From Thermoanaerobaculum sp. (GTDB taxonomy: Bacteria > Acidobacteriota > Thermoanaerobaculia > Multivoradales > UBA5704), in assembly GCA_021154885.1 (NCBI GenBank), contig JAJKHS010000094.1:1-34538 (forward strand): a stretch of 34,538 nucleotides of DNA. The letters run 5' to 3'. Below are positions 14,675 through 17,809 of the stretch, one piece after another (within the stretch, counting starts at the first letter, position 1; each line of letters starts with the position of its first letter). The notes under the pieces were generated by a model. The model searched no databases. It was not told where the DNA came from and saw only the letters and a program-made list of their open reading frames with translations. The position numbers and the translations under genes are program-made.

Positions 14675-15036
14675 GCGACACTCTACTCCAAGCCCGCGAA
14701 GGGGTGCAAGATGAGTGCCCCTGTTTCAGCCGATGGAAGGTCACCCTCTTGGGCGTTCCGGCCTCCTGGCGCGTAGACCAGATATGAGCGGAAGGTTCGC
14801 ACGCCGGAACGAACCTCAGGGTCGGACGGTAGATCTTACAGCCCAAGGGTGATTTCGAGGTGTCATATTTTGTCAGTGGGGCCGGCAGCGAAGACGGCAG
14901 CCGTCGTTCCTCGCAACAGCGTTCGCAGACGAGTTGGCCCGCTTATTGCTAGGAACGAATGGCGTACACGGTAGGGGCTGATTCGAGCCTTAGCGCACAA
15001 CGGGCGTAGCCGCTACCATCCAAAGGAGATACAGCC
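14675..15036. other. Intergenic region between the act operon and the peptide/TPR operon
   Basis: About 360 nt without a convincing gene. It holds an inverted repeat, AGGTTCG (14793-14799) and CGAACCT (14810-14816) separated by 10 nt, which could be an operator or a small hairpin. A strong ribosome-binding site (AAAGGAGA at 15023-15030) serves the next gene. I see no clear promoter for that gene, although one must lie here. Codon use of the short frames here does not look like a real gene. Confidence 0.4.
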
Positions 15037-15354
15037 ATGCGCTCCGCCTTCCGTCGCGCCACGATCGCCGCTCTTATCGCCGCGTTTCTGGCTCCCGGGT
15101 TGATCCACGCCCGCCCCTTCGACCGCTCCGCGGGGAAGGTCAACGCCGCGAGCGAGGTCTCTCGCGGCGGAGTGTCTTTCAGTGCGGTATGGAATTTGCT
15201 TGCAAAACTTTGGTCCGGGAGTGGTGGTGCTAGCCTAGCCGGTTCGCTGAGTGTGTTGTCTGACGTGATGTCTCCACCACCACCGCCGTCGACGGCGACC
15301 ACGCCGCCGCCCCCGGATGGCGACAACGGGAATCATCTCGATCCGAACGGCTAG
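15037..15354 (+). CDS. Small secreted Pro-rich protein, possible signal-peptide precursor
   Basis: A 105-residue protein with a basic N terminus and hydrophobic stretch (MRSAFRRATIAALIAAFLAPGLIHA) that reads as a Sec signal peptide cleaved near residue 25. The middle is Ser/Gly/Ala-rich, then a Pro-rich run (SPPPPPSTATTPPPP) leads to a short acidic/polar end, DGDNGNHLDPNG. No cysteine is present. AAAGGAGA 6 nt before the ATG is an excellent ribosome-binding site. The stop is 53 nt before the TPR gene on the same strand, so the two are probably cotranscribed. I recognise no domain. The shape fits an exported pro-peptide, but a structural or surface role is equally possible. Confidence 0.7.
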   Translation: MRSAFRRATIAALIAAFLAPGLIHARPFDRSAGKVNAASEVSRGGVSFSAVWNLLAKLWSGSGGASLAGSLSVLSDVMSPPPPPSTATTPPPPDGDNGNHLDPNG

Positions 15355-15407
15355 GCAGAGCAGGCAGCGATGAGACAGAATTGACTTCAAGCCCGAGAGG
15401 ACGATTC

Positions 15408-16565
15408 ATGGTCGATTCTTTAAACGCTCTGGCGAGATCCCGAGCCGAAGCCCGCGAGCTCTGGAGCGAGCTTGAGCCTTATCGTTTTGAGGATCAGTAT
15501 TATCTGATCCGCACCCATCAGCGCTTTCTGGCCTGGGGGTTCTGTGAGCTCCTCTGTCAGGAGAGCCTGCGCTTGGCGGCTGTCGACGCCGGGCGGGCCG
15601 TGGAGCGGGCGGAGCTCGCGGTGCTCATCTCGGACCTCATGAAGGACGACGAGCCGGTCACCGATCGCCGGCTCTATCAACTCCGCGGTTACGCCTGGGC
15701 GCACGACGGCAACGCCCGCCGCGTGCTCGGGGACCTGCGGGGCGCCGACGAGTCGTTCGCCATCGCCGAGGCCTGGTGGGAGGCGGGAGAGGCGGAACTC
15801 GGCGACTGCCTCGGCTACGAGCCGGTGATCCTCGAGCTCAAGGCCTCGCTGCGCATCGCCCAGCGGCGCTTCCCGGAGGCCTTCGCACTGCTCGATCGCA
15901 TCTATGCGATTCACACCCAAAGCGACCGCCCGGAGCACCGGGACGCGCACCTCGCCGGCCGGGCTCTGGTGACCAAGGCCTTGGCGCTGGCGGAGATGAA
16001 CGAGCCCGAGAAGGCGATCGAGCTGCTCGAGCAGGCCGAGGGGATGGTGGATATGAAGCGCGACCCGCGCCTCGTCCTCTGCCTGCGGCACAACCTCCTC
16101 TCGGACCTGACGACCGTCGAGCGCTATGCCGACGCCGAGTCCCGGCTTCCGGGCGCCGAGATCCTCTGCCGCGAGCTGGACAACCCCCTCGACCTGATCC
16201 GCCTGCGCTGGACGGAGGGGCGGATCGCCGCCGGCCTGGGCCACACGAACGAGGCGATCGAGCTCCTCCGCGAGTTGCGGCAGGAGTTCGTCGAGCGCAA
16301 GATGGCCTTCGACGCCGCCCTGGTCACCCTCGAGCTGACGGAGTTGTACGCCCGCAAGGGCTGCACCGAAGAGGTCAAGGCGTTGTCGCTGGAGATGGCG
16401 GGCATCTTCCAGGCCCAGGACGTACCCCGGGAGGCCCTGGCCGCCCTGCTCTTTTTCCAGCGGGCCGCCCAGCGCGAGAGGGCTACCGCCAAGCTCGCCC
16501 GCGAGATCGCGACCTTCCTGCAGCAGCTCCGTGCCAATCCCGAGCTGCGCTTCGAACGGCGGTAG
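15408..16565 (+). CDS. Cytosolic TPR-repeat protein
   Basis: A 385-residue all-helical protein with no signal peptide or membrane span. Tetratricopeptide-like units are visible, for example YAWAHDGNARRVLGDLRGADESFAIAEAWW (about 105-135), AHLAGRALVTKALALAEMNEPEKAIELLEQAE (about 180-215) and a repeat near RIAAGLGHTNEAIELLRELRQEF (about 275-300). The N-terminal helical part (to ~95) has no helix-turn-helix. I recall related acidobacterial proteins with an XRE HTH fused in front of the same repeat region, which would make this a stand-alone sensor or adaptor. The ATG at 15408 has GAGAGG 7 nt upstream; a TTG at 15381 is possible but less likely. The length is close to that of Rap proteins. Confidence 0.75.
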   Translation: MVDSLNALARSRAEARELWSELEPYRFEDQYYLIRTHQRFLAWGFCELLCQESLRLAAVDAGRAVERAELAVLISDLMKDDEPVTDRRLYQLRGYAWAHDGNARRVLGDLRGADESFAIAEAWWEAGEAELGDCLGYEPVILELKASLRIAQRRFPEAFALLDRIYAIHTQSDRPEHRDAHLAGRALVTKALALAEMNEPEKAIELLEQAEGMVDMKRDPRLVLCLRHNLLSDLTTVERYADAESRLPGAEILCRELDNPLDLIRLRWTEGRIAAGLGHTNEAIELLRELRQEFVERKMAFDAALVTLELTELYARKGCTEEVKALSLEMAGIFQAQDVPREALAALLFFQRAAQRERATAKLAREIATFLQQLRANPELRFERR

Positions 16566-16687: not shown

Positions 16688-17809
16688 GTGAATCGCAGGG
16701 AATTTTTACGCGCGGGCTTGCTCGCCGGGACCGGAGTCCTCGCCGGTCCGATGATCAACCGGGGACGCTACGATCTCTTCGCCGACGGACGGAGCGAGCA
16801 CTCCTCTCGCACCGTCGAGCTGGTCGGGCGGTCGATGGTCATCGACATGCTCGGCCTGCTGACCCTCGACTGGTCCAGGCTGTACGCCTGGCAGCGCGAT
16901 CCGAGCCTCTTCGGCGGCTCCGACCTCCAGAAGCTCCGGGCCTCCGGCGTGCGGGTGTTCCACCCCGCGGTGGATCCCGACGATCCGAACCCGTACCAGG
17001 CGGCCCTCGGCTGGATGGAGGGGTGGAACCGCCTCCTGGACCGGCGCGCCGACTCCTTCCTGCGCATCGCCAGCGCCCGCGACCTGGAGCAGGTCCGCAA
17101 GGAAGGCAGGCTGGGGATCGTGGTGGGCTTCCAGAGCTCCGATCATTTTCGGTCGGTGGACGACGTGGCGCGCTTCTACGCCCTGGGGCAGCGGGTTTCG
17201 CAGCTCACCTACAACTCCCGCGACCGCCTCGGCTGCGGCTGCTTCGAGGAGCGGGACACGGGGCTCACGGAATTCGGCGCCCAGGTGGTCGCGGCCATGA
17301 ACCGGGCAGGCATGGCGGTGGACGTCTCCCACTGCTCCGAGCGCACCAGCCTGGACGCCATCGCCCTCTCCGCCCGGCCGGTGCTCGTCACCCACTCCAA
17401 CTGCCGCGCCCTGGTGGCCCACCCGCGCTGCAAGTCGGACGCGGTGCTGCGGGCCCTGGCCGCCCGTGGCGGCGTGATGGGCATCACCGCCGTGGCCGCC
17501 TTCGTCAGTCCCCGGCGGACGGCGACAGTGGAGGATCTGCTCAACCACTTCGACCACGTCGCCCGCACAGTGGGCGTCGAGCACGTGGGAATCGGCAGCG
17601 ACGTGGATCTCGACGCCGCCGATCCCGCCACCGGCCAGCCCCTGGCCCGCTATGCCGTGCAGGGGCTCGCGCCCGCCCGCCGCGTCTTCGACCTCGCCGA
17701 GGGGCTGGTCCGCCGCGGCTACAGCGATCACGCCATCGAGCTGATCCTGGGCGGAAATTTTCAGCGGGTGCTGGGGGAGATCTGGGGGGCTGCCGAAGCA
17801 AAGACCTAA
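16688..17809 (+). CDS. Tat-exported membrane-dipeptidase-like protein (peptidase M19 family)
   Basis: A 373-residue protein starting with GTG. The N terminus MNRREFLRAGLLAGTGVLAG is a Tat-type signal. The body follows the renal-dipeptidase/M19 TIM-barrel fold: LGIVVGFQSSDHF (about 138-152), QLTYNSRDRLGCGC, MAVDVSHCSERTSLDAI, PVLVTHSNCRALVAHPRCKSD and VEHVGIGSDVDLD. M19 enzymes hydrolyse dipeptides with a two-zinc site. The usual first metal motif HxD (as in DGHNDLP) reads DMLGLLTLDW here, so that histidine is absent, while the histidines in THSN and VSHC remain. The enzyme may have altered metal content or substrate. It faces the aminotransferase gene convergently. Confidence 0.85.
   Translation: MNRREFLRAGLLAGTGVLAGPMINRGRYDLFADGRSEHSSRTVELVGRSMVIDMLGLLTLDWSRLYAWQRDPSLFGGSDLQKLRASGVRVFHPAVDPDDPNPYQAALGWMEGWNRLLDRRADSFLRIASARDLEQVRKEGRLGIVVGFQSSDHFRSVDDVARFYALGQRVSQLTYNSRDRLGCGCFEERDTGLTEFGAQVVAAMNRAGMAVDVSHCSERTSLDAIALSARPVLVTHSNCRALVAHPRCKSDAVLRALAARGGVMGITAVAAFVSPRRTATVEDLLNHFDHVARTVGVEHVGIGSDVDLDAADPATGQPLARYAVQGLAPARRVFDLAEGLVRRGYSDHAIELILGGNFQRVLGEIWGAAEAKT

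Follow-up and report, generated by a model that had tools for sequence, protein, structure and literature searches.

Does a gene for a small exported protein, lying directly upstream of a gene for a TPR protein in Thermoanaerobaculum sp. (Acidobacteriota), form a Rap-Phr-like signalling pair with it? The question arose from the window, i.e., the whole stretch of 34,538 nucleotides that was analyzed (contig JAJKHS010000094.1). Its initial annotation described an exported protein of 105 aa ending in DNGNHLDPNG, followed after 53 nt by an all-helical TPR protein of 385 aa without HTH, and read the two genes as a possible pair of this kind. Both proteins turned out to be as described: the small one (P0001) is encoded by an ORF at the coordinates given below and starts with a charged hydrophobic leader, and for the TPR protein (P0002) coordinates, Pfam matches and the AlphaFold2 model agree. 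The locus comprises the following features.

15022..15028, + strand: Shine-Dalgarno-like AAAGGAG of the precursor gene (read from the sequence)
15037..15354, + strand: precursor gene P0001, 105 aa, ATG start (ORF and translation)
15037..15111, + strand: leader of P0001, residues 1-25 (hydropathy and charge)
15175..15216, + strand: L/W segment SFSAVWNLLAKLWS, residues 47-60 of P0001, common to many precursors (alignment A1)
15271..15321, + strand: Pro/Thr-rich linker, residues 79-95 of P0001 (translation)
15322..15351, + strand: DNGNHLDPNG, the lone C-terminal motif copy of P0001 (alignment A1 and copy analysis)
15395..15401, + strand: Shine-Dalgarno-like GAGAGGA of the TPR gene (read from the sequence)
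15408..16565, + strand: TPR receptor candidate P0002, 385 aa from ATG (ORF, Pfam, predicted structure)

The leader of P0001 has a best 11-residue mean hydropathy of 2.5 and a charge of +3, and is probably cleaved after IHA, a site picked by eye. The protein ends in DGDNGNHLDPNG; the segment DNGNHLDPNG is proposed as its mature peptide region. P0001 matched nothing in Pfam, NCBIfam or PADLOC, and scored E 2.7e-14 against a profile of its own family, of which it is one of the 41 training rows. For P0002, Pfam returned generic TPR-type models and one weak DUF match, with no HTH among the matches; neither a leader nor an H-C-C motif at the N-terminus was found, and no PADLOC model matched. The window held no tRNA and no Rfam family at gathering score.

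Orthologues of P0002 were found in two related genomes (G001 and G002), at 68-69% identity to P0002 and 92% to each other, and they likewise carry neither HTH nor H-C-C motif. The precursors paired with them hold two copies of TGGQMDPVG each. P0001 retains one changed motif, and the position of the first copy reads SGSGGASLAGS. A CxxCH-rich protein is encoded upstream of the pair in all three cases (window, G001 and G002). Downstream of the window pair lies a gene for a Peptidase_M19 dipeptidase (16688-17809, + strand), a homologue of which is found downstream of the orthologous pair in L105.

Within its own genome (8.2 Mb in 161 contigs) the pair is one of many. At E<=0.001, 69 places matched P0002, some of them parts of one ORF, and around these TPR places 50 distinct small leader-bearing ORFs with [DN]PxG near the end were found, at least one of them spurious. 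A precursor profile built from 41 of these 50 matched 51 places in the genome at E<=0.001 (ORF C71 counted twice). Of these, 48 are found at most 1 kb from a TPR place, a zone that makes up 2.4% of the genome, which exceeds chance; as the training rows had come from the neighborhood of TPR genes, other genomes are the fairer test of pairing. The 49th match belongs to a tandem array 1.3 kb from a TPR place, and two lie elsewhere. Seen from the other side, the profile detected a precursor less than 1 kb away for 50 of 70 TPR places and none for the other 20, although some of these 20 have precursors outside the profile matches (e.g., C55). Similar precursor genes can also stand in tandem near one receptor place, with three at L031:2507-3643 (+) and two at L004:3175-3986 (-).

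In other genomes the association recurred; its absence there would have spoken against the initial reading. The precursor profile matched in 15 of 40 genomes, own genome included, and a TPR-family gene (E<=1e-8) was present in 91 of 100 stretches taken around precursor matches in relatives; these stretches came from among the matches listed, without the two rows G022 and G028. Four of the nine stretches lacking a TPR gene reach the contig end at most 260 nt from the precursor. A receptor-side scan of named genomes with the TPR alignment yielded 28 loci, labelled Acidobacteria, Thermoanaerobaculia or Holophagales (22), Deltaproteobacteria (4, all from one MAG that is the same as G007 in the window's order) or uncultured bacterium only (2); they overlap the precursor-side genome set, as G001, G002, G003 and G007 are in both. 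Nineteen of the 28 loci hold a profile-detected precursor with a leader-like start, two of these precursors (L107 and L108) having an atypical C-terminus, and the profile found none at the other nine. Further precursors at receptor-side loci are those of L102, cut by the stretch end, and of L113 and L118, recognized by motif scan.

The precursors center on the window's order and family. At E<=1e-4 matches were obtained in 16 of 72 genomes of the order (one of them, G436, probably false) and in 12 of 119 genomes of the class, where the three outside the order are weak. Across the phylum, 3 of 396 genomes matched at 1e-5, all in the window's order; with 13 candidates scored per genome, absence elsewhere in the phylum carries little weight. 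The largest sets belong to four genomes of the window's family, with 51, 40, 27, and 16 matches.

Some DPNG proteins stand apart from TPR genes. In another order of the same class, L238:2573-2935 (-) encodes a leader-bearing DPNG protein with three copies that looks real, and L237:2639-2899 (+) a weaker candidate, a leader-bearing DPNG/DPDG repeat protein; no TPR-family match was found in the stretch around either. Many motif copies are present in the DPNG protein encoded at L083:1444-1812 (-), in whose stretch no TPR-family gene was found, and the same applies to L206. Two further candidate precursors, L239 (outside the order) and L241 (within it), are probably false.

The 160 distinct precursors fall mainly into two gene layouts: 93 are codirectional and upstream of the receptor and 44 are tail-to-tail with it (median gap 22 nt), next to 6 divergent, 1 downstream and 16 unpaired precursors. 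A leader-like N-terminus was present in 157 of 160 precursors, whose starts were chosen to favor one; with the threshold unchanged, 4 of 101 receptors had one as well. Among the codirectional receptors (77 of 78 distinct), no HTH appeared in the best 25 of the 30 matched families, so that at most five of these receptors could have one. Within the first 160 residues, 58 of the 77 carry H-x3/4-C-x2-C, although zf-HC2 matched only five of the 77. The tail-to-tail receptors matched HTH_3 in 14 of 24 and HTH_31 in 12 of 24 cases, while the H-C-C motif occurred in two. HTH-fused relatives, which the initial annotation had mentioned, thus exist. We had considered that the HTH class lacked a small exported ORF or had a divergent precursor; the coordinates show a tail-to-tail arrangement. 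The layouts also differ in motif type, as GCxxDPxGxC was present in 30 of 44 tail-to-tail precursors and in 1 of 93 codirectional ones. The Cys-flanked turn of this motif could be closed by a disulfide.

Two observations concern the surroundings of receptors. At L011, a TPR paralogue without profile-detected precursor has upstream a 109-aa ORF which, judged by eye, looks like a sigma factor; sigma factors may thus be partners of some H-C-C TPR proteins. Upstream of HTH-class receptors, in divergent orientation, one repeatedly finds a gene for a protein of about 90 aa that bears the motif E(V/I)RRxxECVLxDxxxPAxxDL and is a candidate for a regulated target; no Pfam match was obtained for the three members tested. 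Its members are located as follows.

L146:4983-5396, + strand: member of the ~90-aa E(V/I)RRxxECVL family
L009:3181-3438, + strand: member of the same family
L145:518-784, - strand: member of the same family
L003:3088-3459, + strand: member of the same family

The secreted peptides might be bacteriocin-like or otherwise bioactive, with the TPR protein as their transcriptional regulator or immunity protein and not as a receptor. Diverse short peptides with Cys-flanked turns, as in the HTH class, could indeed be effectors, and HTH-bearing regulators adjoin these Cys-flanked precursors. We nevertheless consider this quite improbable: clustering of the neighboring ORFs revealed no modification, transport or immunity gene common to the codirectional pairs, and the PADLOC models match neither protein of the window pair. 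The largest neighbor cluster (20 loci) came up in the search for a shared third gene and looks, by eye, like a chain of antisense ORFs.

The same clustering showed no adjoining gene of any kind, importers included, that the codirectional pairs have in common. Two SBP_bac_5 genes are present in the own genome; they permit re-import, and nothing more. The missing link to an importer would suit an intracellular export sensor, in which the TPR protein binds the motif of a precursor not yet exported and reports Sec load or the state of the envelope, with neither peptide return nor cell-cell signalling. Adjacency, leader and TPR fold fit this reading equally well. It leaves unexplained why a precursor should hold several copies of the motif, and why there should be dozens of paralogues with different motifs that agree between copies; we give it a small chance.

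The copies themselves were also compared. Precursors usually carry 1-9 copies of [DKE]xGxxxDPxG, the commonest residues being D/K/E at -6, G at -4, I/M/L/V at -1 and N/D/S after DP. Among the 160 precursors, DPxG occurred once in 56, twice in 54, three times in 37, more often (up to nine times) in 9 and not at all in 4. A conserved C-terminal segment, whose absence would likewise have counted against the initial reading, is present in the form of the frame xGxxxDPxG. Its variable residues differ between paralogues about as much as the leader: identity at the variable motif positions and in the leader was 0.35 vs. 0.46 at 62% receptor identity (83 pairs) and 0.63 vs. 0.74 at 84% receptor identity (15 pairs). 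The plain argument that the peptide is conserved was dropped, as relatives diverge at these positions no less than in the leader.

Agreement was found within precursors. In the 100 precursors with at least two copies (262 copy pairs), copies of one precursor have 1.80 of the 3 residues that precede DP in common, compared to 0.54 of 3 (sd 0.04, maximum 0.74) when copies were dealt among precursors 2000 times, a shuffle that ignores subfamilies. Measured more strictly, against the precursor that belongs to the nearest receptor, copies were closer within their own precursor in 52 of 77 cases and less close in 23 (Wilcoxon p 8e-6). In close pairs of precursors the copies also change together, e.g., KQGSGVDPNG and NQGSGVDPNG in L171 vs. 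KQGSALDPNG and DQGSALDPNG in L192, or four xAGSGMDPDG in L069 vs. four xGGAGMDPDG in L233. Recent gene conversion as the origin of identical copies is not supported: wherever two copies have the same ten residues (16 pairs), their DNA differs synonymously. As these pairs stem from six precursors, they do not count as 16 independent cases. For the full set of 262 copy pairs, synonymous differences amounted to 0.46 per site and nonsynonymous ones to 0.22. As P0001 has a single motif copy, the copy-agreement argument rests on its relatives. A frame that stays the same, residues that change and copies that agree inside each precursor form, in our reading, the trace that would be expected of separate signals.

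These data also bear on a structural or envelope role of the small exported protein, with its repeats as turn or metal-binding elements and a TPR protein that does no more than regulate or accompany it. A turn could arise from the frame xGxxxDPxG, and spacing and copy number of the motif vary, as such a role would allow. In a generic repeat, however, one would not expect variable residues that agree within a precursor and change between paralogues, nor a motif type tied to the layout of the receptor, and of all readings we hold this one to be the least probable.

The fold of the receptor was examined on predicted structures. AlphaFold2 models P0002 as a solenoid made up entirely of helices, 18 in number (mean pLDDT 92.8, pTM 0.88). 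Foldseek matched this model to 41 PDB chains at E<=0.001; LGN/Pins came first, and 12 of the chains were Rap proteins, the best of them in a Rap-CSF complex (E 2.5e-5). VIA-align gave Z 23.6 for LGN (309 aligned, 3.3 Å), Z 20.5 for RapI (304 aligned, 3.9 Å) and Z 20.0 for NprR (322 aligned, 4.8 Å). The model of an HTH-class receptor (L102; pLDDT 84.1, pTM 0.70) behaved similarly, with Z 22.5 for LGN, Z 21.8 for Rap-CSF (289 aligned, 3.7 Å) and Z 21.1 for NprR (304 aligned, 4.3 Å), and PlcR reached a Foldseek E of 1.3e-3 with it. A sequence search found RapH and NprR as well, behind kinesin light chains and designed TPRs. Judged by the models, Rap and NprR are the nearest solved bacterial quorum-sensing folds, behind the eukaryotic LGN/Pins; as LGN/Pins score higher, the Rap/NprR-like fold is shared and not exclusive, and a TPR fold by itself shows no function. 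In P0002, N102 and R105 are invariant and N229 nearly so; they are located in helices 83-107 and 220-236, which we take, from TPR geometry, to be A-helices lining the concave face.

Taken together, the locus probably belongs to an RRNPP-like intracellular peptide-pheromone network that expanded in one family of the Acidobacteriota and in which precursors would be processed and their peptides re-imported and bound. After export the precursor would be cut and its motif peptides released; a peptide would then reach the cytosol via an oligopeptide permease and bind the concave face of the partner TPR protein. Where a receptor has an XRE-type HTH, it would change transcription directly, and HTH-less receptors such as P0002 would act via a protein partner, as Rap does. 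Fast-changing variable residues that agree within each precursor could keep dozens of channels in one cell apart. The phylum has an outer membrane, an extra barrier to both release and re-entry of a peptide.

In its layout, its fold and the design of its precursor the window pair resembles an RRNPP pair, and we infer binding. Because the subfamily models do not match and the phylum differs, membership in RRNPP is not established: no named RRNPP subfamily model was among the listed Pfam and NCBIfam matches of P0002, and the 24 HTH-class receptors, which hit 19 NCBIfam families, matched none either. There is a chance that the RRNPP-type design was invented independently. We lean, with less assurance than for the network as such, towards a second home of intracellular peptide-pheromone signalling outside Gram-positives, situated in one Acidobacteriota family with outer-membraned cells. 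It would have its own multi-copy DPxG pheromone lineage, dozens of private channels per cell and two kinds of TPR receptors (HTH-bearing, tail-to-tail and with a Cys-flanked peptide; H-C-C or bare and codirectional), perhaps convergent on the RRNPP design.

If so, re-imported pheromones are not tied to one type of envelope, as they would also serve a poorly cultured, outer-membraned phylum. About a hundred natural peptide-receptor pairs would become available for learning the specificity code, and cell-cell communication of these soil bacteria would be directly testable with synthetic peptides. In the literature covered, which leaves aside preprints and many subscription journals, no description of such a peptide-TPR network in Acidobacteriota was found, and since 2018 no RRNPP paper naming acidobacteria (preprints again aside). 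RRNPP signalling is treated as a Firmicutes trait in the available text of two papers (PMC10075063, PMC9765709), the former analysis covering Firmicutes and viruses, and the accessible portion of PMC12700828 contains nothing on phyla beyond. PMC9601222, considered as a precedent, is unrelated as far as its available text goes.

Among known systems, the NsdA family of TPR-like regulators (NCBIfam NF053720) resembles the HTH-class receptors in matching 3 of the 24 (best E 2.1e-10), but these are only a minority, and we know of no exported DPxG partner of NsdA. NprR-NprX and PlcR-PapR share with the HTH class the N-terminal HTH, the TPR solenoid and the adjoining exported propeptide; here, in contrast, the precursor is tail-to-tail with the receptor and usually carries a Cys-flanked motif. 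Rap-Phr is like the window pair in that a leader-bearing propeptide gene adjoins that of an HTH-less TPR receptor of about 380 residues, and the solved folds closest to P0002 include Rap structures. Rap has no N-terminal HTH, and its gene precedes that of Phr, whereas here the precursor is upstream of the receptor; the precursor contains a DPxG motif and an L/W segment, and the phylum is not the Bacillota. The Rap-Phr-like pair that was initially proposed holds for layout and for fold, with Rap and NprR nearest among bacterial quorum-sensing proteins, but not as one pair, as it belongs to a large multi-copy family with two layouts. Multiplicity has parallels in the available text of several papers: RRNPPA propeptides contain up to six peptide copies and some Rap genes have two neighboring propeptide genes (PMC9765709), and tandem pheromones of two phage Rap systems have been tested (PMC11343458). 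The Alo systems of Paenibacillus polymyxa, which are RRNPP-like, likewise comprise many peptide-receptor pairs per genome, with more than 25 pairs in some Paenibacillus species according to the accessible part of PMC7425212. While Alo belongs to the Bacillota, the acidobacterial family combines dozens of pairs with two receptor layouts and repeated DPxG motifs.
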